From assembly GCF_900104045.1 (NCBI RefSeq), contig NZ_FNIN01000018.1, forward strand, positions 1-35,259: a DNA stretch of 35,259 nt, written 5' to 3'. A program made the translations under genes and the position numbers. The notes beneath the pieces were generated by a model, which saw only the letters and a program-made list of their open reading frames with translations, had not been told where the DNA came from and ran no database searches. This document shows positions 3,182 through 27,739 of the stretch, in pieces; within the stretch, counting starts at the first letter, position 1; each line of letters begins with the position of its first letter. Origin of the DNA: Desulfonauticus submarinus. Its GTDB lineage: Bacteria > Desulfobacterota > Desulfovibrionia > Desulfovibrionales > Desulfonatronovibrionaceae.

Positions 3182-4706
3182 GACTCTTCTCCTTTGCCTC
3201 GTTTAAAGTTAGTTCAAATTGATTTTTTCCCTTATCCTGAACAGCAATTTGAACTTTTTGTACTTTGATTAAAGTTTTTTGAATAGATTTATCCATGGTT
3301 TTTAAAGCTAACTTGGGGGCAAATCCAAGATAAAAAACCAATATAGCTAATGGTAATAGATAAGCCCATTCTCTTTTATTTAAGTCTTTAAAGTTTTGTG
3401 CTTTGCTTGGGCTTCCCCATGCTAATTTTTGAAGAAGTCTTAGCATATAGGCGGCTGCTAAAAGCGCTCCTGGAATGGCTACTAAACCTATTATTTTGTT
3501 TTTGGTAAATGCACCAATTAAAACTAATGCTTCTCCTACAAAGCTGTTAGTTCCTGGAAAGGCTAAAGAGGAGAGGGAAAATAGGCCAAAAAAGAACATA
3601 TAAGAAGGAAGGTATTTACCCAGACCTAAATTCTCGCTTATTTCCCTGCTGTGGCTTCTTTCATAAATTGCTCCTACTAACATAAATAATGCGCCTGTGG
3701 TTATACCATGATTGAGCATCTGCATAAGCGCACCTTCTATTCCTCTAAGATTAAACATAAAAATACCTAAAGTTACAAAGCCCATATGAGCAACAGAAGA
3801 ATAGGCAATTAATTTTTTCATATCTGTTTGCCCTAAAGCTACTAATCCTCCATATAAGATTGAGGCAATGGAAAGGGCAATCATTAAAGGAGCAAAATGG
3901 ATGCTCGCTGCTGGAGTTAATCCTAGACAAAATCGGATAAATCCATAAGTGCCCATTTTTAATAGCACAGAAGCTAATAGCACAGAACCAGCAGTAGGAG
4001 CTTCTACGTGGGCAGCAGGAAGCCAAGTATGGAAGGGAAACATTGGCACTTTAATGGCAAAAGCCAAAGCCATTGCTAAAAAGGCCCAAAACTGAAAATT
4101 AAAAGAAAAGTTATGTTGCAATAATTCTGGGATAGAAAATGTTTTGCCTACCAAGTAAAACCCGATAATGGCCACTAATAAAAGAGTACTTCCAGCTAAA
4201 GTATAAATAAAAAATTTAATAGAGGCATATTTCTTTCTTGGACCACCCCATATAGCAATTAATAAAAACATAGGGATTAGCATTGCTTCCCAGAAAATAT
4301 AAAACAATACAAAATCTAGGGCTACAAAAACTCCTATACACGCAGAAGTCATTAATAAAAGACAAATATGAAATTCTTTTACTCTTTTAGTTATGTAAGT
4401 CCATGAACATAAGACGCATAAAGGCAATAAGAATATTGTTAATAAGACCATTAGATAGCTGATACCATCTATTCCAAGATGATAATTGATATTAAATTGT
4501 TCTATCCAAGGTTTTAGCTCTACAAATTGGAATACAGAAGAATTTAGTTTAAATTTTAGTAGTGGTATTGCCAGAACGATTTCTATAAAGCTTATAATGA
4601 GAGTAGAAATACGTACTGATTTCTCTTTGTTTATTCCTAAAATGAAAACTACACCCAATAATGGGAAAAAGATTAATGTTGTTAAAACAGGCCAAGTTGT
4701 AACCAT
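3174..4706 (-). CDS. nuoM: Complex I subunit NuoM
   Basis: A 510-residue antiporter-like proton-channel subunit of the complex I membrane arm. Diagnostic features are Glu in YIFWEAMLIPMFL, Lys in ASVLLKMGTYGF, Lys in GQTDMKKLIAYSSVAHMG and a Glu (instead of the Lys of NuoN/NuoL) in NSFVGEALVLIGAF, which is the NuoM signature. The last ~30 residues are a Lys/Glu-rich hydrophilic tail. The ATG at 4706 has GGAG upstream and follows the preceding antiporter gene after 12 bases. Confidence 0.95.
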   Translation of the reverse strand: MVTTWPVLTTLIFFPLLGVVFILGINKEKSVRISTLIISFIEIVLAIPLLKFKLNSSVFQFVELKPWIEQFNINYHLGIDGISYLMVLLTIFLLPLCVLCSWTYITKRVKEFHICLLLMTSACIGVFVALDFVLFYIFWEAMLIPMFLLIAIWGGPRKKYASIKFFIYTLAGSTLLLVAIIGFYLVGKTFSIPELLQHNFSFNFQFWAFLAMALAFAIKVPMFPFHTWLPAAHVEAPTAGSVLLASVLLKMGTYGFIRFCLGLTPAASIHFAPLMIALSIASILYGGLVALGQTDMKKLIAYSSVAHMGFVTLGIFMFNLRGIEGALMQMLNHGITTGALFMLVGAIYERSHSREISENLGLGKYLPSYMFFFGLFSLSSLAFPGTNSFVGEALVLIGAFTKNKIIGLVAIPGALLAAAYMLRLLQKLAWGSPSKAQNFKDLNKREWAYLLPLAILVFYLGFAPKLALKTMDKSIQKTLIKVQKVQIAVQDKGKNQFELTLNEAKEKSLD

Positions 4707-4718
4707 AGATTACTCCAC

Positions 4719-6488
4719 TTAAAAAAGATAGATTAAGCTAAAAATAGCAAAGGCAATTAATACACTAATACCTAGATATATTCTAACATCACCTTTTTGT
4801 ATTTTTGATATATTATTGCCACATCGGATAAAGTTATAGGCAAAACCATCTATGACTCTGTCTATTTCTTCCCAATCAAATAGAGCAGATCCTCTCGCTA
4901 ACCCCATAAGACCGCGTAAACCTATTTTTTTGTATATTTCAGACCACCAATTATCTATTTTTTCAATAGGATTTTTACAGAGTTTAAGGAAACTTCTTCC
5001 AATAAGTCGATAAAAATAATCAAAGTCTAAGTTAAGTTTAGGCTCGGGAGTAAGTTTTTTACGAAGAACATAAAATCCTAGTCCTGTAAAAGAGAGTAAT
5101 AAAAGTGTTTGTTCTAAGTGCCAAGGAGTATAAGGAGTATATTCTACTTCAAATGGTAATAGATGATAAAGGAAGTTTGGATAAACACCGATGAAGAAGC
5201 ACAAGAAACTAGCTATAAACATAGCTACGTACATGTTTTTGGGAAGCGGTTTAATGCTGCCTGAATATTTTTTTTCTCCATAAAAGGCAAAGTAGGGTAA
5301 TTTTATTCCTACAGAGAGGAATGTTCCTACTGCAGCTAATTCTAATCCGAGGGCTAAAATAGTTCTGTGAGCTTCAGCTGCTCCAGAGATTACCATAGTT
5401 TTACTTACAAAACCTGAGAATAGAGGAAATCCAGAAATAGAAACAGCTCCTACCATGTAAAATACAAAGACCCAGGGTAATTTTGTGGCAAGGCCGCCTA
5501 GTTCGGAAAGCTTGGCTGTACCTGTAGCATATAGTAATGATCCTGCTCCCATGAAAAGCAGTCCTTTATATAGGATATGAGCATAAGCATGGGCACATGC
5601 ACCATTTAAAGTCATACTTGTACCTATTCCAATACCTGCCACCATATAGCCTACCTGCGATACAATATGATAGGCTAGTATTCTTCTGGCATTATTCTCA
5701 ATGGTAGCATAAAATACGCCATAGATAGCCATTATTGTCCCAGCAATTGCCAATATTTCAAACCCTGCAAAGCCTCTGGCAAGGACGTACACTGCAGTTT
5801 TAGTAGTAAAGGCACTCATAAACACTGCTCCTGTAATTGTTGCCTCTGGATATGCGTCTGGGAGCCAGGCATGTAAAGGCACAACAGCAGCGTTTACTGC
5901 AAAGCCAATTAATATAAGATAATCATATATAGTAGCGCTACTTGGGGAAATTGGAACAAAATCAAAATTACCCACAACTTTATAGCGTAAAAGCAATCCA
6001 CCTAACAGAAAGAGTCCTCCCAGAGTATGAAATATAAAGTATCTAAAACCTGCGTTTGTCGCTTTAGGATTGTTTTGATTTAGCCATACCAAAAAAGTTG
6101 AGGCTACCGCCATAAGTTCCCAAAAGATAAAAAGTGTAAAATAATCCCCAGCAAAAGTAGAGCCAAAGGCGCCTGCTACATATAATGCTGCGGCTATATG
6201 TTGGGCCCTTTCTTTAACATGAAAAGCATAAATAAAGCCGATAATGGATTGGATGGCAAAGACGTGAGCAAAAACTATGCTTAAGGTATCTACTCGGCCA
6301 AGAGTTAGTTTGAAACCTAAATAGCTAATTTCATTATATATTCCAGGTTTCATTAAAAGTACGCAAAAAATAGCAATTATTCCTGGAAGAGGAAGAAGAT
6401 ATTTAAAACTCCTATGTTTCCAGATTGTTAAAATACCTGCAAAGATGATAAAAATAAAAGCTGGATGAATAAAATTAGTTGCGTTCAT
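4719..6488 (-). CDS. Complex I antiporter-like subunit, MrpD-type body with NuoL-like C-terminal arm
   Basis: A 589-residue membrane protein of the NuoL/MrpA/MrpD superfamily. The core resembles MrpD-type antiporter subunits: Glu in FIFWELMAVAS, Lys in FTTKTAVYVL, Lys in HILYKGLLFMG and Lys in SGFVSKTMV. After the last core helix (about residue 450) there is a hydrophilic, amphipathic stretch, then a conserved IDRVIDGFAYN segment and a terminal helix beginning GDVRIYLG. That pattern matches the lateral helix and final helix of NuoL, so this gene probably fills the NuoL position at the distal end. Databases may call it Na+/H+ antiporter subunit D; its place in the nuo operon argues for complex I. 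Its ATG overlaps the preceding small gene by 14 bases and has GAGGA upstream. Confidence 0.85.
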   Translation of the reverse strand: MNATNFIHPAFIFIIFAGILTIWKHRSFKYLLPLPGIIAIFCVLLMKPGIYNEISYLGFKLTLGRVDTLSIVFAHVFAIQSIIGFIYAFHVKERAQHIAAALYVAGAFGSTFAGDYFTLFIFWELMAVASTFLVWLNQNNPKATNAGFRYFIFHTLGGLFLLGGLLLRYKVVGNFDFVPISPSSATIYDYLILIGFAVNAAVVPLHAWLPDAYPEATITGAVFMSAFTTKTAVYVLARGFAGFEILAIAGTIMAIYGVFYATIENNARRILAYHIVSQVGYMVAGIGIGTSMTLNGACAHAYAHILYKGLLFMGAGSLLYATGTAKLSELGGLATKLPWVFVFYMVGAVSISGFPLFSGFVSKTMVISGAAEAHRTILALGLELAAVGTFLSVGIKLPYFAFYGEKKYSGSIKPLPKNMYVAMFIASFLCFFIGVYPNFLYHLLPFEVEYTPYTPWHLEQTLLLLSFTGLGFYVLRKKLTPEPKLNLDFDYFYRLIGRSFLKLCKNPIEKIDNWWSEIYKKIGLRGLMGLARGSALFDWEEIDRVIDGFAYNFIRCGNNISKIQKGDVRIYLGISVLIAFAIFSLIYLF

Positions 6489-6732
6489 AAAAATCCTCGT
6501 CTTTTCCTAAAAAAGTATGTGCGCATCCTTTAGCTATTTTTACTAAGATTATAGTACAGCCAAATCCAAAAATAGCCCAGAACCCTGGTATTAATTCAGC
6601 TTTAAAGTGGGGATGGTGAGGTTTTAGAAAAATGTTTATTATCACTAAAATAGCTAGACAGGTAAAAAAGAACTTCTTCCACCACATTTTCTTTTGTTGT
6701 GCCTTGGTCAACCATTCTCTTAAAATGGCCAT
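6475..6732 (-). CDS. Small two-helix membrane protein of the complex I operon
   Basis: An 85-residue protein that I cannot assign to a named family. A basic N-terminus (about residues 1-20) is followed by two likely membrane helices, about residues 21-36 and 49-68, joined by a His/Pro-rich loop (KPHHPHFKAE). The C-terminus is short and acidic. The start has a strong GGAGGTG site. The gene overlaps both neighbours (13 bases with the upstream antiporter gene, 14 with the downstream one), so it is probably translated with them and may be an accessory subunit joining two antiporter-like subunits. It is not NuoK, NuoJ or an obvious MrpB/C/F/G. Confidence 0.75.
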   Translation of the reverse strand: MAILREWLTKAQQKKMWWKKFFFTCLAILVIINIFLKPHHPHFKAELIPGFWAIFGFGCTIILVKIAKGCAHTFLGKDEDFYERN

Positions 6733-8213
6733 TTAACACCTCCAAGGGTTTTTATAAAATTTAAAAATGGGTCAGGGTATAATCCTAATAATACCGAGAT
6801 AAGGGCTGTGATAGTTAATGGAACTACCATGGTAAGAGGAGCTTCCTTATATTCATCCAAATTTATATCTGGATGAGGTTTTCCAAAAAAGCCTTTATAT
6901 ACAATAGGACCAAAATACGCTGCATTTAAGACAGTGCTGGCAAGCAGAGCGATTAGAAGGATAACTCTATTAATATCTACCGCACCGTTGACTAAGTACC
7001 ATTTACTCACAAACCCACACACAGGAGGAACTCCAATCATACTTAGAGAAGCTAGAGCAAAGGCAGTATATGTGAGAGGCATTTTTTTGCCTAATCCATT
7101 CATGAGGCTGATTTTCTTTAGATGAGTTGCCACATAAATGGCACCTGCTGCAAAAAAGAGGGTAATTTTACTAAAGGCATGGTGGGCAATGTGGGCTAAT
7201 CCTCCTGTTACTGCAAAAGGAGAGAGCATAGCTACTCCTAATACAATATAAGAAAGTTGACTTACTGTAGAGTACGCCAATCTAGCCTTTAAGTCGTCTT
7301 TAGTTAGAGCGATTAAAGAAGCTGTTACAATAGTAAAGGCGGCTAAATAGGCTGTAGGAATGCCTAAGTTAAAATGATTCATTGCTTGAAGGCCAAATAC
7401 AGAAAGAATAATTCTACTAATAGAGAATACTCCAGCTTTAACTACTGCTACAGCGTGGAGTAGTGCAGATACAGGAGTAGGAGCAACCATTGCCGAAGGA
7501 AGCCAGTTATGTAGGGGCATAATAGCAGCTTTGGCTAATCCAAAGATATATAAAAAGTAGGTAATAGTAATCCATATAGGGTTTGTCCCAGGCGGGAAAA
7601 TTCCTTTGGCAATATCTCCTAATCTAAAGTCTAACGTACCTGCAAGAACATAGGTTAAAATCATTGCAGGAAGTAAAAAGAGTTTTGATGTGCCCATTAA
7701 ATAAACGATATATTTTTTAGCCCCTGTATATGCTTCTTCGTCTTGATGGTGGGCTACTAAAGGATAGGTAAAAATAGTTATGACTTCATAAAAGAGGTAA
7801 AGGGTAAAGACATTACCACTTAGAGCTACACCTTGAGCCCCAAAAATCGCAATGGCAAAGCAAATATAGTATCTGGTCTGAGCGTGTTCATTTAGAGAAC
7901 GCATATATCCAATATTATAACTTGTAGCAAAAAACCATAAAAAGGAAGAGATGATAGCAAAGATTAGACTAAGTCCATCTGCACAAAATTTAACATTTAT
8001 GCCTGGAAGAATTTCAAATAGAGTATAAGTATAGATATTGCCTTTTAAAACTCCTAATCCAATAGGAATTAAGCTTAGAAAAGTTAATAAAGCCGCAACA
8101 AAAGAAATGCTTTCTCGTAAATTAACATTTTTTCTAAAAATCCATACAAAGAGAGGGGCAATCATTGTAATGCCCAAGGGTATAAGTAGTAGTGCAGAAT
8201 AAATAGTTGTCAT
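6720..8213 (-). CDS. Complex I antiporter-like subunit, MrpD/NuoL type without lateral helix
   Basis: A 497-residue antiporter-like membrane protein (proton-conducting membrane transporter family). Conserved charged residues are visible: Glu in LYLFYEVITIF, Lys in VAVVKAGVFS, Lys in HHAFSKITLFF and Lys in CGFVSKWYLV. It ends shortly after the core helices and lacks the long C-terminal arm of NuoL, as in MrpD or NuoM. It lies between nuoK, the usual neighbour of nuoL, and the small two-helix gene. With NuoM, NuoN and the 589-residue paralogue it makes four antiporter-like subunits in one operon, one more than canonical complex I. Confidence 0.87.
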   Translation of the reverse strand: MTTIYSALLLIPLGITMIAPLFVWIFRKNVNLRESISFVAALLTFLSLIPIGLGVLKGNIYTYTLFEILPGINVKFCADGLSLIFAIISSFLWFFATSYNIGYMRSLNEHAQTRYYICFAIAIFGAQGVALSGNVFTLYLFYEVITIFTYPLVAHHQDEEAYTGAKKYIVYLMGTSKLFLLPAMILTYVLAGTLDFRLGDIAKGIFPPGTNPIWITITYFLYIFGLAKAAIMPLHNWLPSAMVAPTPVSALLHAVAVVKAGVFSISRIILSVFGLQAMNHFNLGIPTAYLAAFTIVTASLIALTKDDLKARLAYSTVSQLSYIVLGVAMLSPFAVTGGLAHIAHHAFSKITLFFAAGAIYVATHLKKISLMNGLGKKMPLTYTAFALASLSMIGVPPVCGFVSKWYLVNGAVDINRVILLIALLASTVLNAAYFGPIVYKGFFGKPHPDINLDEYKEAPLTMVVPLTITALISVLLGLYPDPFLNFIKTLGGVKWPF

Positions 8214-8214
8214 A

Positions 8215-8523
8215 TTAACCTCTCAAGGAGTTTATTTTATCTGCTTCTATTTGACCAAAGCGTCTAAATACAACTAAAATAAGTGCTAGTAGGACTGTTG
8301 CTTCAGCAGCAGCAAGTCCCATCACAATTAGTGTTCCTGCTTGTCCAAGAAAATCCGCAGTTTCAGTCAGCTTGGTTGAAGCCATTATGGCAAGACCTGC
8401 TCCATTTAAAAGCAATTCTATACAGATTAGTATTCCTACCAAGGTTCTTCGCCAAATAATGCCCACTATCCCTACAACCATTAAAAAGAGAGCAACTAAG
8501 TGGTAGATAGTTAAGAAATTCAT
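8215..8523 (-). CDS. nuoK: Complex I subunit NuoK
   Basis: A 102-residue, three-helix subunit homologous to MrpC, part of the proton path between the quinone site and the antiporter-like subunits. The two membrane Glu residues characteristic of NuoK are present, in CIELLLNGAGLAI and AAAEATVLLALI. Length is typical. GAGAGGA precedes the ATG. It begins 2 bases after nuoJ ends and stops just before the next antiporter gene. Confidence 0.95.
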   Translation of the reverse strand: MNFLTIYHLVALFLMVVGIVGIIWRRTLVGILICIELLLNGAGLAIMASTKLTETADFLGQAGTLIVMGLAAAEATVLLALILVVFRRFGQIEADKINSLRG

Positions 8524-8525: not shown

Positions 8526-9038
8526 TTATTCCTCTCGACTTATTTTTTTCTCAAATCCTAAAACAACAGCTCCTGCCATTGCCACTAATAATACTACAGA
8601 GATTAACTCAAAAGGTAACATATATGGGCCAAGAAAAAAAGTTCCCAGGTCCTGGATAGAGGAAACTTTTGGCGTTTGAGAGGATCGTAGTTCATTTAGC
8701 AAAAAATAACCAAGTACACTAACTAAAATGAAAGGTAAGGTACAGATTAAAAAGTACTGACTTTTCTTCCGAGGTTTTGCTTCATCTCCTTGAGACGAGG
8801 CTTTGGTAAAAGCAATGGCAAAGAAGATTAAGATACTAATTGCTCCTACATAAATTAAGATTTGCATGATTCCAATAAAAGGAGCAGCCATTAAAAAATA
8901 AAGCCCAGCAACTCCAAATAAAGTTAAGATAAGGCCTGTTAGGGCTCGGATAATGTTTTTAGTAAAAATAGTAACCAGGCCACCAAAGATAATCATTGCT
9001 ATATGGATGCCTAAGACTATTGCTCCTATTTTTTCCAT
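8526..9038 (-). CDS. nuoJ: Complex I subunit NuoJ
   Basis: A 170-residue, five-helix membrane subunit. The conserved helix with QILIYVGAISILIFF, whose Tyr-Val-Gly is the flexible segment of NuoJ, is present. The frame is open upstream to 9188, which would give 220 residues, but that extension is hydrophilic and lies wholly inside nuoI. I chose the ATG at 9038 because it has GAGGATT just upstream and directly follows the nuoI stop. Confidence 0.92.
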   Translation of the reverse strand: MEKIGAIVLGIHIAMIIFGGLVTIFTKNIIRALTGLILTLFGVAGLYFLMAAPFIGIMQILIYVGAISILIFFAIAFTKASSQGDEAKPRKKSQYFLICTLPFILVSVLGYFLLNELRSSQTPKVSSIQDLGTFFLGPYMLPFELISVVLLVAMAGAVVLGFEKKISREE

Positions 9039-9039
9039 C

Positions 9040-9600
9040 TTAATCCTCGATGTTTTGTTTTTGTCTGGCTTGATTTTGTAATCTTGCCAGAAGGTCAAAT
9101 TCAAATTCTTTTCTACTGTATCCTGCCAAATAAATATCTTTTGAAAATTTAAGCGAACCTGCTGGGCAATTTTGAACACATAATCCACATAAACTGCAAT
9201 AATTATAGTCTAACTCAAAGGAAAATAATTTTTTTCTCATTTTAGGTGGTGGAGCTACTTTATGTTTAATATCTAGAGGAGTATCTTGAATATCTGGATG
9301 AGGGGTATGAACTGTTTTTGTTTCTATAGGCTCTTTTACAATTTTTATTTTTATACAACCAGATGGACAAATATTTTCACATAAACCACACGCAATACAT
9401 TTGGGTACAAAGGGGTTGTTCTCTTTAGGCACTAACTCTATATGTCCTCGATATCCTTCCAAGCCTGTTGGGGTAACTACTTCTCGAGGATAATGAATAG
9501 TGACGTTAGGTTTTAAGAAATTTTCCCCTGTAATTTTTAGCCCTACAATAAGGCTTACAAGACCATCAAATGCTTCTTTTAATTTAGTCCCTATAGTCAT
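9040..9600 (-). CDS. nuoI: Complex I subunit NuoI (two [4Fe-4S] clusters)
   Basis: A 186-residue peripheral-arm subunit that passes electrons to NuoB. Two ferredoxin motifs are complete: C68/71/74/78 and C135/138/141/145 (counted from the ATG at 9600). The gap between the two motifs is about 56 residues, roughly twice that usual in NuoI, and contains a Pro/His/Lys-rich insert. The ATG at 9600 overlaps the nuoH stop by one base (TGATG); a GTG one codon upstream is less likely. GGTGGTGA lies upstream. Confidence 0.94.
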   Translation of the reverse strand: MTIGTKLKEAFDGLVSLIVGLKITGENFLKPNVTIHYPREVVTPTGLEGYRGHIELVPKENNPFVPKCIACGLCENICPSGCIKIKIVKEPIETKTVHTPHPDIQDTPLDIKHKVAPPPKMRKKLFSFELDYNYCSLCGLCVQNCPAGSLKFSKDIYLAGYSRKEFEFDLLARLQNQARQKQNIED

Positions 9601-10577
9601 CACAGTTTCACCACCAACGCTGTTATTAAAATATTAATTAACGTAAGAGGAATAAACCACTTCCAAGTTAAGTTTAGTAATTGATCAAATCTTACTCTGG
9701 GATAAGTCCACCTTACCCAAATCATTAATAACAGAAGTCCATATACTTTTAGTAAAAACCACCACCAACCTGGGGCAACAGGTCCCTGGTATCCTCCTAG
9801 AAATAAAATAGAAGCAAGAGCACATCCTACTACCATATAAGAATATTCTGCTAAAAAGAATAGGCCAAAACCCATTCCCGAATATTCTGTGTGAAACCCT
9901 GCGGTAAGTTCACTTTCTGCCTCAGGTAAATCAAAGGGAGCTCTATTCGTTTCTGCAAATACACAGATAAAAAAGATAATAAAGGCTAGTGGTTGTTTTA
10001 CAACCAACCATTGCCAAGGCCACGCTCCTTGATAGTTAGTGATATCTACTAAATTTAGGCTTCCGGTTAATAAAACAACAGGCAAAAGAGAAAGCAAAAG
10101 GGGGATTTCATAGGCTACAGATTGAGCAATATTTCGTGCTGCACCCAATAAAGACCATTTATTTTGTGAACTCCAACCAGCCAAGCACAAAGCTAAAACA
10201 TTTAGGCCACTAAAGGCTAGAACTAAAATCAAACCGATATTTATAGAAATATTTTGTAGAGTTGGGCCAAAAGGTAAAGGCAGAAAACATACAATTGCTG
10301 GAGCAAAGGAGATGAGGGGGGCGGCCCAATAAAGAATAGGATCTGCTCCTTTAGGAGTGATCATTTGCTTTGCAACTAGTTTAACTGCATCTGCCAGGGG
10401 CTGTAGAATTCCATGGGGGCCAACTTCAAAAGGACCTGGTCGTCTTTGAATATGGCCAGCTATTTTTCTTTCAAGATAAACACATACTAACCCATTTAGA
10501 CCAACAAAGGCTAATATTCCTATCAGTCCAATTACTATTTGAATAAAAGGTAAGGGTATTTGGGATATATTTATCAT
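9600..10577 (-). CDS. nuoH: Complex I subunit NuoH
   Basis: A 325-residue membrane subunit that forms part of the quinone-binding site. Hallmark segments are ERKIAGHIQRRPGP near the N-terminus, ADAVKLVAKQMITP, and the acidic loop with AETNRAPFDLPEAESE followed by LTAGFHTEYSGM. Length and about eight hydrophobic helices match the family. Its ATG overlaps the nuoD stop (ATGA). Confidence 0.97.
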   Translation of the reverse strand: MINISQIPLPFIQIVIGLIGILAFVGLNGLVCVYLERKIAGHIQRRPGPFEVGPHGILQPLADAVKLVAKQMITPKGADPILYWAAPLISFAPAIVCFLPLPFGPTLQNISINIGLILVLAFSGLNVLALCLAGWSSQNKWSLLGAARNIAQSVAYEIPLLLSLLPVVLLTGSLNLVDITNYQGAWPWQWLVVKQPLAFIIFFICVFAETNRAPFDLPEAESELTAGFHTEYSGMGFGLFFLAEYSYMVVGCALASILFLGGYQGPVAPGWWWFLLKVYGLLLLMIWVRWTYPRVRFDQLLNLTWKWFIPLTLINILITALVVKL

Positions 10578-11746
10578 CTGTCGATCTCCGGAATTACTAA
10601 GTCTAAACTACCTAAAATAGATACTGCATCTGCCAATAATGTCCCTTTTGCTACTTCAGAAAAAAGACTTAAATTAGAAAAACTAGGGGAGCGGAGTTTC
10701 AATCTATAGGGAAAAGCAGTTCCATCACTTACTAAATGGACTCCTATTTCTCCCCTAGCCCCCTCTACAGCAAAATAAACTTCTCCTCGAGGAGGTTTAG
10801 GGCGCTTTGGAGCCTTGGGGTGAATATATTTTCCAGATGGTAATTGTTTAAGAGCTTGCTCAATAATATTTAAGCTTTGCTCCATTTCTTGCATACGGAC
10901 TAAATATCTTCCCAGAGCATCTTTAGTTTGTGTAGTAGGGATTTCAAATTCTAACTCAGGATATATGGAATATGGCTCTGCTCTTCGAATATCATATTTG
11001 ACATCAGAGCCTCTTAATACAGGCCCTGTTGCTCCATATTTACGAAGAGTCTCTTTTTCTATGATGCCTATTCCTTCTACCCGTTTTCTTAAAATAATAT
11101 TATCTGTAACAAGAGCCTTATACATTTTTAGCCGTTCTCTTAAATATTTGCAGAATTCTGTTGTTTGAGCGATAAAAGTGTCATCTATGTCTTGACTAAC
11201 TCCCCCAAATCGATAGTAACAATATGTTAATCTAGAGCCAGTTATTCGCTGGAGAATATCCATTACAATTTCTCTATCTTCAAATGCGTACATAATAGGA
11301 GTAAATGCTCCTAGGTCTAAAAGATATGCGCCCCACCACAGGAGGTGTGAATTTATTCTATTTAATTCACACGTTATTACTCGAATATATTCTGCTCGTT
11401 TTGGTACTTCCAGTCCGAGAAGTCTTTCTACTGCACCTACATATGCCCAATTCCAAGCTAAAGCATGTAAATAATCTATTCGCCCTAAATTAGGTAAATA
11501 CTGCTCATATCTTTTTACTTCTGCCATTTTTTCGTGCATACGGTGAATATAACCTAAGACAGGTTCGGCTTTTACAATATATTCTCCATCTATTTCTAAA
11601 ATGATACGCAGCACACCATGGGTGGAAGGATGTTGGGGGCCCATGTTTAGGATAAGAGTATCTTCAGATGGAGTGGGATGAAAATGTCTAGTATAAAAGT
11701 CACCACATAATTCACATGCATCTAAATTTGGATTTAACATAGCCAT
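10574..11746 (-). CDS. nuoD: Complex I subunit NuoD (49-kDa subunit)
   Basis: A 390-residue peripheral-arm subunit, the relative of the [NiFe]-hydrogenase large subunit that binds the quinone head group. The conserved NMGPQHPSTHGVLR is at about residues 32-45, and the C-terminus ends in the typical ...EIDR. NuoC and NuoD are separate genes here. Before the conserved region is a short extension with C11, C14, H21 and H23 that is not part of the usual NuoD core. The [NiFe]-hydrogenase metal-binding CxxC pairs are absent, so this is not a hydrogenase subunit. The start could be the ATG at 11746 or the one at 11740; the nearest Shine-Dalgarno-like sequence, AAGGGT, does not decide between them. 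Confidence 0.96.
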   Translation of the reverse strand: MAMLNPNLDACELCGDFYTRHFHPTPSEDTLILNMGPQHPSTHGVLRIILEIDGEYIVKAEPVLGYIHRMHEKMAEVKRYEQYLPNLGRIDYLHALAWNWAYVGAVERLLGLEVPKRAEYIRVITCELNRINSHLLWWGAYLLDLGAFTPIMYAFEDREIVMDILQRITGSRLTYCYYRFGGVSQDIDDTFIAQTTEFCKYLRERLKMYKALVTDNIILRKRVEGIGIIEKETLRKYGATGPVLRGSDVKYDIRRAEPYSIYPELEFEIPTTQTKDALGRYLVRMQEMEQSLNIIEQALKQLPSGKYIHPKAPKRPKPPRGEVYFAVEGARGEIGVHLVSDGTAFPYRLKLRSPSFSNLSLFSEVAKGTLLADAVSILGSLDLVIPEIDR

Positions 11747-12285
11747 TACCCTTTTTTAGAACACTCAATAAGGTAGTTAGAAAGTTCTTCGTCCCGCGGA
11801 TGTTGTAATACCTGTTCGCATGCAGGTAATAATTGGTATAAATCTTTTTTCTTATTTTCTGGTTTTAAAAGAGGAGGATCTATTGGGTTTTCTGGGTCTA
11901 AAAGAAGAGGTATTAAATTGGGATGATTTTTGAATATAATCCCAAAAAAATCATAACATTCTCTTTCATGCCATAAGGCACCTGGATATACTGATGAAAT
12001 AGATTCCACCTCTTTCTTTCCTTCTGTTAAAAGCACTCGGAGGACAAGCCTGCCAGGAGTTTCCCAATGATTAAAATGATAAACTAATAGAAATCCTTCT
12101 TTTACTTGAGAGGCAACAATGTCTTCTAAATAATATCCTAAAGAATCCAATTTTTGGACACTTTTTAAAAGGGTTTTTGGAGTAATGAAAAAATGCCGTT
12201 CATAACCTGTTTGTTCATGAGAACAGGAAGAAAAACAGCAAGCATCTTCTATAAAAGGCGGGAAGAGAGATGTCTTGTTATTCAT
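11746..12285 (-). CDS. nuoC: Complex I subunit NuoC (30-kDa subunit)
   Basis: A 179-residue peripheral-arm subunit. The signature [19 protein letters not shown] is present, followed by the usual acidic/Pro-rich end. The N-terminal 25 residues carry C16, C17 and C21 in the segment [11 protein letters not shown], which is unusual. The ATG at 12285 overlaps the end of nuoB by 8 bases and has AAAGGAGAG upstream. Confidence 0.94.
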
Positions 12286-12811
12286 GAAACTCTCCTTTGG
12301 GTTTAGGCCACCACCGTTTCCCTGTAATTTTCTCTTGAAGTTTAAATAATCCTTCTAATAAACCTTCTGGCCTAGGCGGGCATCCAGGGACATATACATC
12401 AACAGGGATTAGTTTATCTACTCCCTCCACTATTCCATACTGTCCTTTAAAATAAAAAGGGCCACCTGAAATCGCACAATTTCCCATAGCAATAACCCAC
12501 TTGGGAGCAGGCATTTGTTCGTAAAGTCTTACTACCATAGGTGCTATTTTTTTACTTACAGTGCCTGCTACAATCATAAGGTCTGATTGCCGAGGCGAAG
12601 GACGAAATACTTCAGCTCCAAATCTTGCTATATCAAATCTAGCCATACCTACAGCCATCATTTCAATAGCACAACAGGCTAATCCAAATGTCATAGGCCA
12701 CAAAGACATAGACCTACAAATATCTAGGTATTTTTTAGTTAATTGGAGGTTGATAATAGGTGTTTCTATTTCAGGTAAATGAAATTTTAAATTTTTATTC
12801 TCTTGGGCCAC
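12278..12811 (-). CDS. nuoB: Complex I subunit NuoB (cluster N2)
   Basis: A 177-residue peripheral-arm subunit that binds the terminal [4Fe-4S] cluster N2, which reduces quinone. The four ligands are present: the tandem Cys pair C46-C47, C112 in [12 protein letters not shown] and C144 in [13 protein letters not shown]. The start is GTG at 12811, inside the 3' end of nuoA, with AAGGAG 8 bases upstream. Confidence 0.96.
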
Positions 12812-13167
12812 GAGAACACTCCTTTTTTAAAGAAAAAGATAAGAGCTGCAAATAATATGGAAACAAAGATAAATATTTCTATAAAAGGTAAGAAGCCTTT
12901 ACTTGAAAAATAGCAACTAGCTACTGGGAAAAGATATAACACGTCTACATCAAAGGCTAAGAATAAAAGGGCGTAAAAATAGTAATTTATTCCAAATCGT
13001 ATCCATGGGGAACCATAGGGACACATTCCACATTCATAAGGAAGAAGAAGATTTTTTTCTTTTGATTTTGGAGCAAGAAGCAGAGAAGCTAAAAGAGGAA
13101 CACCTGCAAAAATTAAACCCGCAACCAAAAATAGAATAATAGCTACGTGTATCCATAAAAAATTCAT
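12787..13167 (-). CDS. nuoA: Complex I subunit NuoA
   Basis: A 126-residue, three-helix membrane subunit and first gene of the operon. The conserved loop [20 protein letters not shown] and the helix [13 protein letters not shown] identify it. The second acidic residue of that helix is Asp, where Glu is common. A GAGGT sequence precedes the ATG. All downstream genes to 69 are on the same strand with overlaps or short gaps. Confidence 0.95.
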
Positions 13168-13369
13168 TCAGCTTACCTCATAAAATAAATAAAGTTATTC
13201 AAAAAGTTTTTCAAAGTTTAACCAGGCTAAACACAAAAGAAGAAAAATTGTCAAGAAAGTTTTTTGTAAGTTATTTTATTCACAAAAAAAATTTTTCTTG
13301 CCTTTTTTTTCTCATTAGTTAACACCATAACCTAAAAAACCATTTCGCTAATAAAATGGGGGTAAAATT
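13168..13369. promoter_or_regulatory. Divergent leader between nuoA and the molybdopterin oxidoreductase gene
   Basis: A 202-base AT-rich spacer must hold both outward promoters. On the plus strand, TTGTCA (13248-13253) followed after 17 bases by TTATTT is a weak sigma70-like candidate. On the minus strand, TTGAAA followed after 17 bases by TATTTA lies just upstream of nuoA. An imperfect palindrome (CCATTT, 8-base spacer, AAATGG; 13340-13359) sits just ahead of the GGGGGT ribosome site of the plus-strand gene and could be an operator. Shared control of the two units is possible but not shown. Confidence 0.4.
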
Positions 13370-15451
13370 ATGAAAGAAAAAAAATATTCTATTTGTGGAA
13401 TGTGCACCTCAAGATGTCCTATTGAGGTAGATGTAGAAGATGGTGAAATAAAATTTATTCAAGGAAACAGACAGAGTGGAGTAAGAGGAGGGTTATGTGC
13501 CCGTGGAGCAGCAGGCACAGCCTTGATTGAAGATGCTGAAAGGCCTCAATATCCTTTGATTCGTGAAGGAGCAAGAGGAGAGGGTAAGTGGAGAAAGGTT
13601 TCCTGGGAGGAGGCCTTTGCTTATGTAGCAGAAAGGTTGAAAGAGGTAATTGATAAATATGGCACAAAGTCTGTGCTTTGGTCGGATAGGGGAGGTCCTT
13701 TTGCAGACCTTCATAAAGCTTTTGTTAGGGCTATTGGCTCTCCAAATTATTGTAACCATGATGCTAGTTGTGCGAGAAATGTTCAGCATGCTGCTTTATC
13801 CTTGTTTGGTTTTGGTAGAAAAGGTGTTGTCTATGATTTTAAAAATGCTAAGCATGTTGTTTTACAGACAAGGAATTTATTCGAGGCTATTAATGTTAGT
13901 GAGTGTGTAGGGATGATGGATGCCCTAGAAAAGGGATGTAAACTTACAGTAATAGATGTTAGGGCTACTATTACTGCAGGCAAAGCAGATACTTTTTTTA
14001 TGATTCGTCCAGGTACAGATTATGCCTTTAACTTAGCTGTGATTAATGAAATTTTGAGGAAGAAACTTTATGATTCTCACTATGTCAATAAATATTTTGA
14101 AGGATTGTCAGAATTACGAAGTTTTGTAGAGCCTTATACTCCTGAATGGGCAGAGGAAGAAACAGGTATACCAGCCAAAGCTTTAAGAAATTTTGTTCAA
14201 GAACTAGCCGCAGCTAGTCCTTCTGTGATTTGGCATCCTGGTTGGAATAATGCTCGCTATACGGATTCTTTTTATGTTTCGAGGACTATTTATATTATTA
14301 ATGCCTTATTGGGTTCTATTGGAGCTAAAGGTGGTTTAGCTTGGGCAATGACTCCAAAGGACTGTGGGAAACAAGGCCTAAACTCTTTAGCTGCTCAATT
14401 CCCAAAACCAGAGGAAAAGCGAGCTGATGGAGTTGGTTGGAAGTATAAGTATTTTGATGCTGGCCCAGGTTTGTTGCATTTGGCTTTTAAAGCAATTGAA
14501 ACAGAAGATCCCTACCCACTAAAAGCTTATATATGTTATAGGCATGATCCTTTGATGGCGTTTCCTGACCCTAATCAACTGAAAAAGATTTTAGATAAAT
14601 TAGATTTTCTTGTGTCTGTGACCTTTTCGTGGTCAGAGACTGCATGGTATGCAGATGTGGTTTTGCCTTTATCTCCTTATTTAGAACGAGAAAGTATTAT
14701 TGCAACTAAAAAAGGCCCAAAACCTCATTTTATTGTGCGTCAGAGATGTGTTGAACCTAGGTTTGATACAAAAGCAGATTGGGAAATTATTTGTGGCCTG
14801 GCTAAAGCCATGGGTATTGAGAAGTTAAGTTTTGATTCTATTGAAGATATTTGGAACTTTCAGTTAAATGGTACAGGAGTGAAGATAGAAGATTTTAATA
14901 AAAATGGCATGGTGATGTTAACAGATACTCCGCTTTATATAGATAGAGAGAATTTAAAATTTAAAACACAATCGGGTAAGATTGAAATAATTGCACCAAA
15001 ATGGGAAGAGGCAGGAGTACCTTCTTTAAAACCTTATGAACCAAAACCTCATCCTGAAGAAGGGTCTTTTAGGCTTACTGTGGGAAGGTGTGCTATTCAT
15101 ACCCAAGGACATACTATAAATAATGCTTTACTCGTAGAACAAATGCCAGAAAATGTGTTATGGATAAATAGAGATGTAGCAAAAAGTATGGGGATAGAAG
15201 ATGGAGATATAGTAGAGGTAGATGCTAATAATGGCTATAAAGGCAAAATGAGAGCTTTTGTTACTCCTTTTATACATCCTGAGGCAGTATTTATGGTGCA
15301 TGGATTTGATTCCGCAACACCCCCAGAGACAAAGGCAAGAAATAGAGGAGTGGCTGACCATAAGTTAATGATAGGCGGCCTAGATGTGTGGGATAAAGCA
15401 GGGGGAGCTGTGGCTTTACAAGAGCATTTTGTCAAAATTAAAAAGATTTAA
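13370..15451 (+). CDS. Molybdopterin oxidoreductase, PsrA/PhsA-like, cytoplasmic
   Basis: A 693-residue catalytic subunit of the DMSO-reductase (bis-MGD Mo/W) superfamily. The N-terminal [4Fe-4S] site is C9/C12/C16/C43, and C134 in HDASCARNV is the likely metal ligand. The middle holds the molybdopterin domains (about residues 60-440), and the C-terminal dinucleotide-binding domain is about 570-690, with GRCAIHTQGHT and a conserved DGDIVEVD segment. It best resembles polysulfide/thiosulfate reductase-like enzymes, but the substrate cannot be told from sequence. There is no twin-arginine signal, unlike periplasmic PsrA/PhsA, so it should be cytoplasmic. No B or C subunit is adjacent; the nearest candidate partner is the ferredoxin at 1252. 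A terminator follows directly, so it is transcribed alone. Confidence 0.9.
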   Translation: MKEKKYSICGMCTSRCPIEVDVEDGEIKFIQGNRQSGVRGGLCARGAAGTALIEDAERPQYPLIREGARGEGKWRKVSWEEAFAYVAERLKEVIDKYGTKSVLWSDRGGPFADLHKAFVRAIGSPNYCNHDASCARNVQHAALSLFGFGRKGVVYDFKNAKHVVLQTRNLFEAINVSECVGMMDALEKGCKLTVIDVRATITAGKADTFFMIRPGTDYAFNLAVINEILRKKLYDSHYVNKYFEGLSELRSFVEPYTPEWAEEETGIPAKALRNFVQELAAASPSVIWHPGWNNARYTDSFYVSRTIYIINALLGSIGAKGGLAWAMTPKDCGKQGLNSLAAQFPKPEEKRADGVGWKYKYFDAGPGLLHLAFKAIETEDPYPLKAYICYRHDPLMAFPDPNQLKKILDKLDFLVSVTFSWSETAWYADVVLPLSPYLERESIIATKKGPKPHFIVRQRCVEPRFDTKADWEIICGLAKAMGIEKLSFDSIEDIWNFQLNGTGVKIEDFNKNGMVMLTDTPLYIDRENLKFKTQSGKIEIIAPKWEEAGVPSLKPYEPKPHPEEGSFRLTVGRCAIHTQGHTINNALLVEQMPENVLWINRDVAKSMGIEDGDIVEVDANNGYKGKMRAFVTPFIHPEAVFMVHGFDSATPPETKARNRGVADHKLMIGGLDVWDKAGGAVALQEHFVKIKKI

Positions 15452-15565: not shown

Positions 15566-17710
15566 ATGAAATTAAAACTTAAGTCTAAAATATTTTTGCC
15601 TTTAACAATTGTTTGTGTGGTTTTGTTGGGAGCTATTTATTTCTTTTTTAGCTTAAAACTTGGTAAATTAACTAATTATTTCATTTGGCAGGTAGGGCAG
15701 GCAAAATCAAGAGAAATAAGTTCATATTTTGACTTGGCAACTCAAGAGGCAATGAAGTTATCTTCTTTATTTGTGGCGTTGCCACAGGTAAAAGAGGCAT
15801 ATAAAATGGCTTTGAGTGGTAATATTGATGTAGAAGATGATCCCACTGTTGAAGAGGCACGCAAGCAGCTTAGAAATGCACTGATGACTTTTTTAGAGGG
15901 CTATCATCAGGTTTTAGGCCAAAAGCTTAGAATACATTTTCATCTTCCTAATGGTAGAAGTTTTGTGCGGTTGTGGAGAGAAAAAAATGCCAAAAGGCGA
16001 GGTGTGTGGGTAGATATTTCTGATGATATTTCTAGCTTTAGGAAAACTGTTTTAACTGTTGCTAGGACAGGTAACAAAGTGTTGGGTATAGAAATTGGTA
16101 GAGGTGGATTTTCTTTAAGAGGAGTTTTACCTATAAAAGAAGGAGATAGGCTTTTAGGTTCAGTAGAAGTTTTGGTTGATTTTAATTCTATTTTAAAGGC
16201 GGCTAGCAAATCCAAAGAAGAATATTTGGCTGTGTATATGGATAGTAGTTATCTACCAATAGCTACAAAATTACAAGATAAGACAAAATTTCCTATTTTA
16301 GGGGATAAATTTGTACAAGTCTATGCACCTAATGAAAAGTTAAATATGCTTTTTGATATTCAATTGTTAGAGAAAGGGTTAGATGGCTTAGTAGTAAAAG
16401 AGAAAAATAATTTTGGTGTTGTAGCTTTTCCCATTAGAGATTTTAGTAATAAAGTGGTTGGAGTTTTGGCCTATGCTTTTGATGATAGCAGGCAAGTAGC
16501 TTTAGTGAATAATTTGAAACATATTTTATTAGGAGGAGTCAGCCTAATATTAGTGATTTTTCTTTTAATTGGAGTAGGAGTTGTTAGAAGATTTGTGTTA
16601 GTTCCTATAGATATTTTGAGAGATTTTGCAGTAAAGGTTGCTAAAGGAGATTTAAAAGCTTCTTTACGTTTTAAAAGTGATGATGAGTTAGGAGAACTTG
16701 CTACTGCTTTACAAGAAATGGTGGTAAATTTGAAAAATAAAATTAAAGAAGCTCAAGAAAAGAGTCTTTTAGCAGAGGAGGCTACTAAAAAAGCTAAGAA
16801 GGCATTGGCTGAAGCAGAAGAAGCACATAAAAAGGCTGCAGAAGCTACTTTAGCAGGAAAGCTGGAAGCTGCAAAAAGAGTAGAAGAAGTAAGTAAAGTT
16901 TTAGAAAAACACAGTACGAATTTATTAGAGAAAATAAACAAAACTTCTTCTGGTGCTAGTTTTCAGAGACAAAGAATACAGGAAACAGCAACTGCTATGG
17001 GAGAGATGAATGCGACAGTATTAGAGGTAGCTAGAAATGCTTCTGAGTCAGCTAAAATTTCTGAGGAAACAAAGGAAAAGGCGAATGCTGGATATGATTT
17101 GGTTAGTAGAGCAAATGAGATTATGGGAGAAGTTAAAGAAAAATCAGATACAATGAAAAATGCTATGGATAAGTTAGGAGCTCAGGCTCAGGATATTGGA
17201 AAAATTATTACAGTGATCGAGGATATTGCAGATCAAACGAATTTATTGGCCTTAAATGCAGCTATTGAGGCAGCAAGGGCAGGAGATGCAGGAAGAGGTT
17301 TTGCTGTAGTAGCTGATGAGGTTAGAAAACTAGCAGAAAAAACAATGCAGGCAACAAAAGAAGTTGGAGAAGCTATTGAAGAAATTCAAATAGGGACAAA
17401 AAATAATATTCAACATGTAGATCAAGTAGTCCAAATAATTGCTAAAACAGAAGAATTAATTACTCACTCAGGTCAAGCGCTTGAGGAAATTGTTCAATAT
17501 GCAGAAAGAGCTGCTGATAGTGTTACTGCAATTGCAACTGCTTCAGAGGAACAATCTGCAGCTAGTGAAGAAATTAACGCTCAAATTGAAGAAATTAATA
17601 AAATTGCTGAGCAAACAGAACAGATAATGCAAGAAGCAGAAAAATCTGTGACCAGATTGGCAGAGCAAGTAGAAAATCTAAAACATATTATTGAAGAATT
17701 AAAGTCTTAA
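15566..17710 (+). CDS. Methyl-accepting chemotaxis protein with periplasmic double-Cache-type sensor
   Basis: A 714-residue transmembrane chemoreceptor. The first helix is about residues 11-31. A large periplasmic sensor (about 35-315) contains [14 protein letters not shown], as in dCache_3-type domains. The second helix is about 318-342, followed by HAMP (343-397). Next is a long Ala/Lys/Glu-rich coiled coil (about 398-445). The signalling domain has its hairpin tip at about 551-592, with [19 protein letters not shown] then [18 protein letters not shown]. The ligand is unknown. There is no C-terminal CheR-binding pentapeptide. AGGAG precedes the ATG. It stands alone between two terminators. 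Confidence 0.93.
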
Positions 17711-20075: not shown

Positions 20076-20101
20076 TAATATAGATAAAAAGGTTGATTTT
20101 G

Positions 20102-22660
20102 ATGAGTATTGTGCATGGTGGAAATGTTTGGCGTATTGCTAGAGAATTAAAGTGCAAACCAGAAGAAATTTTTGATTTTTCAGCAAGTTTAAACCCCATT
20201 GGTCCGCCTAATTGGATAGAAGAAATTGGGAAGACTTTTTTATCTAAAGCTACTCATTATCCTGATATAGAATATTGGGAGCTTAGAGAGAAAGCGGCTT
20301 TTTATTATGGTGTAAAAATTAGCCAAATTTGGCCTCTTAACGGTTCTTCAGCTCTTTTTCCGTTGTTACCTTTTTTAAAAAAAGTAAAACAAATAATAAC
20401 GTTCCCTCCTTGTTTTGGAGAATATATTAGTATATTTTGTGAAAAAAAGCGCAAAATAAAGGTACATTTAGAGTCTGAAAATAATTTTTTATATCCATTT
20501 GATGACTTGGAGAAATGTTTGGAGTATCCATCTTTGGTTATTTTGGCCCATCCTAATAACCCAACAAATTCTTTGCTCGATTTTGGAGTAATTAAAAATT
20601 TAGCTAATAAATATCCTGAGAGTATTTTTGTTTTAGATTTAGCTTTTTGGGATTTTTTAGATCCACAATTTCAATTTAAACTCAATATTTTGCCTAATAT
20701 CGTTTATGTTTTTTCCTTGACTAAAATATTGGGATTGCCAGGAGTTAGAATAGGCTTTGTTGTAAGTTCTTCTCAAATTATTGAATCAGCCCAAAAGATG
20801 TTACCGCCTTGGTCTGTAGGTACTTGTGGTGTGGAGATTTCCAAAGCATATTTTTCTGATGATTTTTTTGTTGATCATACCAGACAAAGGGTTAAGCAAT
20901 TGCGCCAAGAATTGATTTCTTTTTTTCAAGAAATGGGGGCAAAAGTTTATCCCAGTTGTTCTAATTTTATTTTAATCCAACATGATAAAGCTAAACAATT
21001 AGCTAAATTTTGCTTTGAGCATAGAGTTATTCTCAGGGAGTGTGATTCTTTTGAGGGCTTAGGAGATAATTTTTTACGTATTGCTGTAAGACCTTTTTAT
21101 GAGCAGGAGCATTTGTTTCAGGTTGTAAGAGAGTTTTTTGGTCAAAAACAAGTTGTTAGGGGTAGAAGAAAGAATAAAAAAAATAAGAGTCCTAAGGTTT
21201 TAATGGTACAGGGAACGGCTTCGAATGTAGGTAAATCTTTTTTAGTAGCTGCTTTGGGTCGTATTTTGGCTAGAAAAGGTGTTAAGGTGGCTCCATTTAA
21301 AGCTCAAAACATGGCTTTAAACTCTTTTGTGACTAAAGATGGTTTAGAAATAGGACGAGCACAGGCTTTGCAGGCGCAAGCGTGTTTTTTAGAACCAGAT
21401 ATTAGAATGAATCCTATTCTTTTAAAGCCAAGTTCAGAGATAGGGGCGCAGGTGATAGTAAGAGGACAGCCTGTTTCCAATATGAGTGTGGAAGAATATA
21501 TTGCCTATAAGCCCAAAGCATTTGAGGTTGTAAAAGAATGTTTTAGAGAGTTGAGTTTAGAGTATGATGTTATTTTAGTAGAGGGGGCTGGTAGTCCTGT
21601 GGAAATAAATTTGAAAACCCATGATATTGTAAATATGAATTTTGCTCTGTGGGCAAAAGCTAAGGTTTTGTTGGTTGGGGACATAAATTTAGGAGGTATA
21701 TTTGCTTCTTTTTGGGGAACTTTTTCTCTTTTAACTAAGGAAGAACAAAATCTTATCTTAGGTTTTATTATAAATAAGTTTCGGGGGAGAAAAAGACTTT
21801 TAAATTCTGGCCTAGATTTTATTTATCAACTTACTGGCAAACCCGTATTGGGTATAATTCCTTATGTTTCTTTTAATCTTCCAGAAGAGGATTCTGTTAG
21901 TTTTAAACAAAAAACAAAGTTTTTTTCTCAGGCTAAGGATAGGGTAAAGATAGGTATTATAGATCTTCCTCATATTTCTAATTTTACTGATTTTGATGCC
22001 TTAAAAATGGAAATAGATGTAGATTGTTGTATCATTAGAAGCAAAGAAGATCTTTTAGATAATTTTGATGTGGTTATTATTCCAGGAACTAAAAATGTAT
22101 TTTTTGATTTAAAATTTTTGCATTCTTCGGGAATAGCTACTTGGCTTTTGGAGAATAAAGATAAGTTAGAGATAGTAGGCATTTGTGGTGGATATCAGAT
22201 GTTAGGAAGTGTAATTCAAGACGATAGTGGCTGGGAAGGTAAAGGAGAAATTAGCGGGTTAGGATTATTACCTGTTAAAACAGAGTTTAAATCCAAAAAA
22301 TCTTTATTTCAAACTAAGGGGAAAATTTTTTTTCAAGAAAAAACATTTGATGTTAGCGGCTACGAGATTCATCATGGTGAAACCAAACCTTTAAGTGACC
22401 TTCTGGTTTTTGGGTATAATGAAAAGAAAAAATCTTTGGGTTATAAAACAAAAAATGAAAAGATTTGGGGAACATATTTACATGGAATTTTTGATAATGA
22501 TGATTTTAGACATGCATGGTTAAACAATTTGAGGTCTCGAAAAGGTTTATCTATTTTAGAGCAAAGGCCCACTTATACTATTTCGCAAGAAATAGATAAA
22601 CTAGCTGATTTGGTTGAAGAAAATATAGAACTTGATTTATTAGATAAAATAATAGGCTAG
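20102..22660 (+). CDS. Fused threonine-phosphate decarboxylase (CobD) and cobyric acid synthase (CobQ)
   Basis: An 852-residue two-domain enzyme of cobalamin biosynthesis. Residues 1 to about 350 are a PLP aminotransferase-fold domain like CobD, which makes aminopropanol phosphate for the nucleotide loop. It opens with IVHGGNVWRIA and has K208 in FSLTKILGLPGVRIGF as the likely PLP lysine. A basic linker (RGRRKNKKNKSPK) leads to CobQ from about residue 363: the ATP-binding QGTASNVGKSFLVAALG, then a class-I glutamine amidotransferase with C695 in GICGGYQMLG and His in GYEIHHGE. CobQ amidates adenosylcobyrinate a,c-diamide. I chose ATG 20102, which has AAGG 9 bases upstream, over a TTG three codons earlier. 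No frameshift is seen. The gene abuts the convergent xerC stop with no spacer. Confidence 0.92.
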   Translation: MSIVHGGNVWRIARELKCKPEEIFDFSASLNPIGPPNWIEEIGKTFLSKATHYPDIEYWELREKAAFYYGVKISQIWPLNGSSALFPLLPFLKKVKQIITFPPCFGEYISIFCEKKRKIKVHLESENNFLYPFDDLEKCLEYPSLVILAHPNNPTNSLLDFGVIKNLANKYPESIFVLDLAFWDFLDPQFQFKLNILPNIVYVFSLTKILGLPGVRIGFVVSSSQIIESAQKMLPPWSVGTCGVEISKAYFSDDFFVDHTRQRVKQLRQELISFFQEMGAKVYPSCSNFILIQHDKAKQLAKFCFEHRVILRECDSFEGLGDNFLRIAVRPFYEQEHLFQVVREFFGQKQVVRGRRKNKKNKSPKVLMVQGTASNVGKSFLVAALGRILARKGVKVAPFKAQNMALNSFVTKDGLEIGRAQALQAQACFLEPDIRMNPILLKPSSEIGAQVIVRGQPVSNMSVEEYIAYKPKAFEVVKECFRELSLEYDVILVEGAGSPVEINLKTHDIVNMNFALWAKAKVLLVGDINLGGIFASFWGTFSLLTKEEQNLILGFIINKFRGRKRLLNSGLDFIYQLTGKPVLGIIPYVSFNLPEEDSVSFKQKTKFFSQAKDRVKIGIIDLPHISNFTDFDALKMEIDVDCCIIRSKEDLLDNFDVVIIPGTKNVFFDLKFLHSSGIATWLLENKDKLEIVGICGGYQMLGSVIQDDSGWEGKGEISGLGLLPVKTEFKSKKSLFQTKGKIFFQEKTFDVSGYEIHHGETKPLSDLLVFGYNEKKKSLGYKTKNEKIWGTYLHGIFDNDDFRHAWLNNLRSRKGLSILEQRPTYTISQEIDKLADLVEENIELDLLDKIIG

Positions 22661-27709: not shown

Positions 27710-27739
27710 TTGATAATGTTAACTATGGAGGCAAAGAAA

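Follow-up and report, generated by a model that had tools for sequence, protein, structure and literature searches.

The locus considered here has a molybdoenzyme gene divergent from a nuo operon that lacks genes for NuoE, NuoF and NuoG, and the question is whether the molybdoenzyme is the electron partner of that complex I and, if so, in which direction the electrons would pass. It was found in Desulfonauticus submarinus, in a window (the whole stretch of DNA analysed) of 35,259 nucleotides, which makes up contig C18; the genome has 2.1 Mb and is 98.6% complete. A sequence-only reading had suggested that the molybdoenzyme, together with a polyferredoxin whose gene closes off the other side of the nuo operon, could be the missing electron-input module. 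We refer to these two proteins as MoA and FdxB.

The MoA gene (13370 to 15451, plus strand) encodes a Phs/Psr-type molybdoenzyme catalytic subunit of 693 amino acids, with one [4Fe-4S] cluster and Cys134 as the presumed metal ligand. It had been placed at 13168 to 15451: the end is right, and the start took in the gap of 202 bases between the divergent nuoA and MoA genes (13168 to 13369), which is presumably a shared promoter region. The Pfam domains Molybdop_Fe4S4, Molybdopterin and Molydop_binding are each matched over cut-off. Cys 9, 12, 16 and 43 and also Cys134 are invariant in an alignment with 13 relatives, two of them just 32% alike, and the intact [4Fe-4S] site and Cys metal ligand of the sequence-only reading are thus confirmed. 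Desulfonauticus sp. 38_4375, with 84% identity, is a near relative. The best PDB match to an AlphaFold model of MoA (pLDDT 91.4) is the polysulfide/thiosulfate reductase PsrA (2vpw), with a TM of 0.91 and 30% identity, and this is also the top PDB match by sequence (8.7e-99). With the NCBIfam PhsA equivalog model NF012032 MoA scores 523.6 bits, and eight further orthologues score 463 to 611 bits, all under the cut-off of 694. Homology favours reduction of thiosulfate or polysulfide as the most likely activity of MoA. Paralogues in the same family with 32-34% identity were considered as MoA orthologues and rejected as separate genes.

The nuo operon is on the minus strand and begins with nuoA (12787 to 13167; Oxidored_q4), nuoB (12278 to 12811; Oxidored_q6), nuoC (11746 to 12285; Complex1_30kDa), nuoD (10574 to 11746; Complex1_49kDa), nuoH (9600 to 10577; NADHdh), nuoI (9040 to 9603), for the subunit at which FdxB presumably docks, nuoJ (8526 to 9188; Oxidored_q3), a mechanical ORF for which the true start is probably an internal ATG, and nuoK (8215 to 8523; 102 amino acids), which was named by place and size. 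The usual place of nuoL is occupied by genes for two Mrp-type antiporter-like subunits, at 6720 to 8213 (NF006236 over cut-off) and 4719 to 6488 (NF009310 over cut-off), with an 85-residue protein that has no Pfam match encoded between them (6475 to 6732). There follow nuoM (3174 to 4706; TIGR01972 over cut-off) and nuoN (1775 to 3181), named from Proton_antipo_M and its place in the operon, and then, after gaps of 16 and 25 bases respectively, FdxB (1252 to 1758) and as last gene a TauE/SafE-family permease of 385 amino acids (69 to 1226). Genes for NuoE, NuoF and NuoG were not found in the operon, from nuoA down to 1775. Nuo operons usually have three antiporter-like subunits and this one has four in the segment from 1775 to 8213 (two Mrp-type, M and N); the operon at L139, in family f30, also has two Mrp-type subunits, and the extra subunit could alter how many ions are moved for each pair of electrons.

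FdxB has 168 amino acids with 16 Cys in four [4Fe-4S] motifs, and its best profile match is DmsB, so that it is a B subunit of the DmsB/PsrB type and not a plain ferredoxin. The sequence-only reading was correct on the place of this protein and mistaken on its nature. It had also reported that no B or C subunit adjoins MoA. With regard to C this stands, as the scanned window proteins, all encoded before position 29127, include no NrfD/PsrC-type subunit, but the locus does have a B subunit, 11.6 kb from MoA as the last-but-one gene of the nuo operon.

None of the 138 MoA orthologues examined has a Tat motif (S/T-R-R-x-F-[LIV]) ahead of its first Cys motif, 9 of 147 loci having been dropped for lack of a Cys motif in the first 140 residues (cut genes, for example). 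The claim that MoA has no Tat signal is thus borne out well beyond the window, and for this reason we take a cytoplasmic location to be general for MoA. PhsABC and PsrABC have in common with MoA-FdxB the fold and cofactor ligands of the A subunit and a four-cluster DmsB-type B subunit. However their A subunit has a Tat signal and they have an NrfD/PsrC-type C subunit in the membrane, in place of which MoA-FdxB appears to have complex I or NAD(P)H partners. As judged from its genes MoA-FdxB is Phs/Psr-like but fails two defining features of the family, the Tat signal and the C subunit.

We searched 395 genomes of the phylum with a threshold of E <= 1e-130 and found MoA in 101, including that of the window. 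The 111 loci besides the window were taken with up to 8.9 kb per side and annotated by BLAST with the genes of the window and another four that came from relatives. At 98 of the 111 loci no more than 1.5 kb separates FdxB from MoA, and at 102 FdxB is within 8 kb; at nine it did not occur inside 8 kb, and one of these has a flank of 1.1 kb. The TauE permease is within 8 kb at 55.

Nuo genes are joined to MoA at 27 of the 111 loci, and in the window. At 24 of the 27 there are at least three core genes inside 8 kb, L086 and L184 are linked through the distal genes of the operon, while L096, where the contig stops after nuoB, was assigned by hand; a count based on coordinates returns the same 27 linked genomes. 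Among the named loci nuo is joined at 11 of 25, including that of Candidatus Desulfobulbus rimicarensis (L025). The named and phylum sets overlap (L016/L097, L021/L104, L023/L105 and L006/L068 are identical rows), and because some genomes occur in both the two counts are not to be summed. The check put forward with the sequence-only reading, whether MoA, the ferredoxin and nuo keep each other's company in other genomes, is thus positive in many of them.

With the window's included, the linkage occurs in nine family codes (f1, f2, f16, f17, f30, f66, f80, f91 and f94) and in four gene orders. The divergent order is that of the window, L017, L063, L064, L068, L079, L080 and L082. In L086 and L184 the operon ends nuoN-MoA-FdxB. 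The order MoA-FdxB-nuoABCDHIJK is found in L091-L098, L102, L104-L106, L129, L132, L134 and L135, and in named loci such as L015, and MoA-FdxB-nuoB-D-I-A-C-H-J-K in L139, L140, L142, L145, L149 and L150. In L079, L080 and L082 the order is B-(C)-D-H-I-FdxB-TauE; nuoA lies a short way upstream and J-N are missing from this neighbourhood, so that the operon amounts to a Q-module with FdxB.

On the MoA tree the nuo label changes at least nine times, compared with a mean of 36.2 for shuffled labels, and 0 of 500 shuffles were as low; the changes are counted with gains and losses taken together. The tree was made with FastTree from 139 of the 147 loci, eight with MoA under 600 amino acids being excluded, and has the long branches L184 and L088 joined. 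The linkage is thus neither a single event nor scattered. As a control for how often another gene adjoins nuo, dsrA was within 20 kb of nuoA in 0 of 25 genomes with a listed dsrA place, these genomes having been picked partly for MoA-nuo linkage. At 84 of the 111 loci there is no nuo linkage in the flanks obtained, which are under 3 kb at 15 of the 111. In the family of the window 16 of 18 genomes have nuoA and 11 have a MoA orthologue (at least 64% identity). The sequence-only reading had named two findings that would refute it, and each of them is partly borne out. Homologues lying far from nuo in related genomes do exist, as in G007 where MoA and nuo are 158 kb apart on one contig, and of the B and C subunits that MoA might have had as its own the B subunit proves to be FdxB, the ferredoxin itself.

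Genomes with the linkage often have more than one complex I. One or two further nuoA genes are present elsewhere in 20 of the 27 linked genomes, the other seven having a single nuoA. Inside single families the additional copy goes with the linkage. In f30 there are two nuoA genes in six linked genomes and one in five other listed genomes, and in f80 two in four genomes versus one in four. The three f2 genomes with two nuoA genes are all linked as MoA-FdxB-nuo, and the 13 other listed f2 genomes have at most one. There is no NuoF-type gene inside 8 kb at 25 of the 27 linked operons. In G069, G188, G286 and G298 such a gene is within 8 kb of another nuo and not of the MoA-linked nuo, so that one complex I is near an NADH-type gene and another near MoA-FdxB. 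Of 31 linked genomes searched with PF01512, 17 gave no match anywhere.

Two linked operons, those of G106 and G271, carry FdxB2-NuoE-NuoF-NuoG-N as well, and in these two cases MoA is therefore no replacement for the NADH part. To judge from the place of nuoD the NuoG-N-terminal-like protein there can have at most about 290 amino acids, and would thus be without the molybdoenzyme-like domain of NuoG.

The genome of the window also has such genes. Contig C3 carries FdxB2, NuoE-like, NuoF-like and NuoG-N-terminal-like proteins beside a selB-like gene, the selB name being a reading of the sequence with no model run. The description 'NuoEFG-less' therefore holds for the operon, and the extension of it to the genome is rejected. 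G000 and G014 have a C3-type cluster as well as MoA, and G015, which is of the same genus and keeps nuoA, has neither. We considered whether the NuoE-NuoF-Fer2G set on C3 belongs to an NAD-formate dehydrogenase and rejected this, as L211 shows no MoA-like gene beside the C3 set. In relatives of genus g2 NuoE-NuoF-Fer2G sets are often beside a MoA-like gene (about 30% identity), several of them with TGA, and an FdhA-like protein on contig C2 may be the partner of the C3 set. The genome of the window encodes another NuoD-like protein (Complex1_49kDa; about 363 amino acids) at G000:C16:8926-9645, which perhaps belongs to a membrane hydrogenase.

Nuo is not the only neighbour of MoA-FdxB. A GltD-like NAD(P)/FAD flavoprotein (domains Pyr_redox_2 and Fer4_20) is encoded within 8 kb of MoA at 47 of the 111 loci, one of which also has nuo, and in L171 and L180 MoA-FdxB is followed directly by NuoE-NuoF-Fer2G-Fer2G, the last two being 2Fe-2S proteins like the N-terminal part of NuoG. 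MoA-FdxB is thus the constant core, with complex I, the GltD-like flavoprotein and NuoEF-type sets as alternative electron partners. In G003, G007 and G013 (loci L061, L065 and L067) a lone NuoI paralogue is found with MoA-FdxB and TauE, away from the true nuo, which suggests that NuoI is the contact of FdxB.

The distribution of dsrA bears on the substrate. The gene is present in 97 of the 101 genomes with MoA and in 93 of the 294 without it, an odds ratio of 52, and the substrate of MoA is thus very probably a sulfur compound. The potentials are about -0.40 V for thiosulfate and about -0.07 V for menaquinone. Thiosulfate therefore needs a much stronger reductant than menaquinol, and an enzyme fed by quinol requires a proton gradient, a need that Phs meets through its C subunit.

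The reading that we prefer, with a probability of about 0.5, is that of a cytoplasmic AB enzyme with no C subunit, with transfer between FdxB and NuoI and with cleavage of thiosulfate or polysulfide driven by reverse flow at the expense of the proton gradient. MoA and FdxB would make up a cytoplasmic complex iron-sulfur molybdoenzyme of the Phs/Psr type, as its A and B subunits, and FdxB would be the electron carrier that connects MoA with the NuoI end of a complex I without its own NADH module, the complex I standing in for the usual NrfD/PsrC quinol subunit both here and in several other lineages. MoA would reductively cleave thiosulfate (or polysulfide) in the cytoplasm to sulfite and sulfide, within reach of Dsr/Apr. 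The low-potential electrons would be drawn from menaquinol, with complex I driven backwards by protons, a path that should in principle be reversible.

Some published expression data bear on this. In the extracts of PMC9751629 PhsA-1 (GF1_30490) and PhsB-1 (GF1_30500) of Desulfolithobacter dissulfuricans adjoin Nuo GF1_30510 and NuoB GF1_30520 by locus tag, and PhsA-1 would appear to be MoA. The proteomics of that paper detected GF1_30510 and GF1_30520 under thiosulfate disproportionation alone, and the Nuo proteins GF1_31140 and GF1_31220 were likewise specific to disproportionation. PhsA-1 was present in both conditions, slightly higher in disproportionation, and was low at 0.124%; the authors describe the PhsAB of this locus as being without subunit C and of low abundance. 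High phsAB transcripts are reported for Ca. D. rimicarensis (PMC7117923), and Nuo without NuoEFG is reported as strongly upregulated in sulfur disproportionation (PMC12142623). As far as the extracts of these three papers go, the data are compatible with both electron directions.

One alternative is thus that electrons run the other way, with MoA oxidising a low-potential sulfur compound in the cytoplasm, either sulfite or sulfide plus sulfite, and FdxB feeding complex I in the forward direction to menaquinone with pumping of ions. The linkage counts for MoA, FdxB and nuo serve this equally well, and the TauE permease near MoA at 55 of the 111 loci would suit it. There is a precedent in the sulfite dehydrogenase SoeABC, which has a cytoplasmic A subunit with B and C subunits and oxidises sulfite. 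The induction of Nuo during sulfur disproportionation (PMC12142623) also favours the forward direction. However the closest solved relative of MoA is a reductase, and the NAD(P)H-type partners at many loci suit a reductase, and we consider forward flow unlikely. Those same partners are the basis for another alternative, a soluble enzyme in which a flavoprotein passes electrons from NAD(P)H to MoA-FdxB, either the GltD-like protein with a 2Fe-2S protein or FdxB2-NuoE-NuoF-NuoG-N. In the genome of the window the C3 cluster would then be the partner, the closeness to nuo would be due to co-regulation or chance inheritance, and complex I would receive its electrons from an ordinary ferredoxin. The 47 loci with a GltD-like gene, the adjacent NuoE-NuoF-Fer2G-Fer2G genes of L171 and L180, and the co-occurrence of C3 cluster and MoA in G000 and G014 with their joint absence from G015 all argue for this. 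It leaves unexplained the four separate nuo orders and the extra nuo copies with MoA-FdxB, and 17 of the 31 linked genomes have no NuoF-type protein; we think it rather improbable.

The suggestion that MoA is a formate dehydrogenase feeding complex I can be given very little weight. The superfamily is the same and the Fdh-alpha model matches with an E of 4e-75, yet at 253 bits against a cut-off of 666, and the score with the PhsA model is twice as high. Formate dehydrogenases have Cys or Sec followed by His at the metal, whereas none of the 13 aligned sequences has His directly after Cys134. We reject this identity on the metal-site motif and the model scores, and the dsrA association also speaks against it. 

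A more far-reaching reading, to which we give a lower probability than to the preferred one, would have MoA-FdxB, with or without NuoE, NuoF and the NuoG N-terminal protein, built into complex I as a peripheral module. A working molybdoenzyme would then take the place of the degenerate molybdoenzyme domain of NuoG, and redox reactions of sulfur compounds would directly drive, or be driven by, the proton pump. The G106 and G271 operons, with NuoE, NuoF, NuoG-N, the nuo core and MoA-FdxB, would be the fullest version of such a module.

With regard to earlier work, the linkage is already in print for one genome, as in Thermodesulfovibrio sp. N1 (THER_0567-0582) PMC5165239 describes a linkage of AB genes of the Psr type with nuoABCDHIJKLMN. 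By locus tag this has the A-B-nuo order also found here, with NuoEFG missing. However in the extracts of that paper it is a single sentence on one Nitrospirota genome, as against nine families, four orders, duplicate complex I and alternative partners here. In the open-access literature, as represented by the extracts searched (subscription papers and preprints being outside the search), we met a Psr-type AB pair joined to nuo only in that paper, and did not come across any account of how widespread the linkage is, of its four gene orders, of the second complex I, of the other electron partners or of a NuoG split as in two of the operons. The 11-subunit complex I of PMC11238625 has the same set (A-D and H-N, without E, F and G) as the window operon; its donor is given as unknown or ferredoxin, whereas the window operon comes with a molybdoenzyme pair and two Mrp-type subunits. 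The MolyAB(C) proteins of sulfur disproportionators (PMC12998232) are, like MoA-FdxB, Phs-related A and B subunits of the complex iron-sulfur molybdoenzyme family in Desulfobacterota, but MolyAB is predicted to be extracellular and has a TorD-type chaperone, whereas MoA is without a Tat signal.

As to the proposed electron-input module, a link to complex I is supported. The strict form, a missing input, is not, as nuo is one of several partners and input is only one of the two directions. With homology, the dsrA co-occurrence and the published proteomics (PMC9751629, in extract) taken together, a quinol-fed reverse-flow reductase fits at least as well as an input. A partner for the NuoEFG-less complex I can now be named in a set of sulfur-metabolising bacteria, and since some of these have close cultivated relatives the idea is testable. 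Sulfur disproportionation energetically needs quinol electrons to be pushed onto thiosulfate. If electrons do run in reverse, MoA-FdxB with complex I would supply the machine for this, and would display the molybdoenzyme ancestry of NuoG in working form.

There are some further observations on the loci. Downstream of MoA in the window (15566 to 17710, plus strand) is a gene for a chemoreceptor with a dCache_3 sensor domain, and L006, L068, L079, L080 and L082 likewise have an MCP gene after MoA; the substrate of MoA may be sensed in swimming. In L091, L095, L148 and similar loci genes for a PAS histidine kinase, a sigma-54 response regulator, TauE and a membrane protein of about 200 amino acids precede MoA-FdxB, which suggests a shared two-component control. 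Elsewhere in the window a HybA/HmcB-like Fe-S protein with a twin-arginine start is encoded at 27710 to 29120 (plus strand), followed by a small membrane protein and with no catalytic subunit adjoining. At 20093 to 22660 (plus strand) an 855-residue frame fuses a CobC-like aminotransferase domain with CbiA and GATase_3 (cobyric acid synthase-like).
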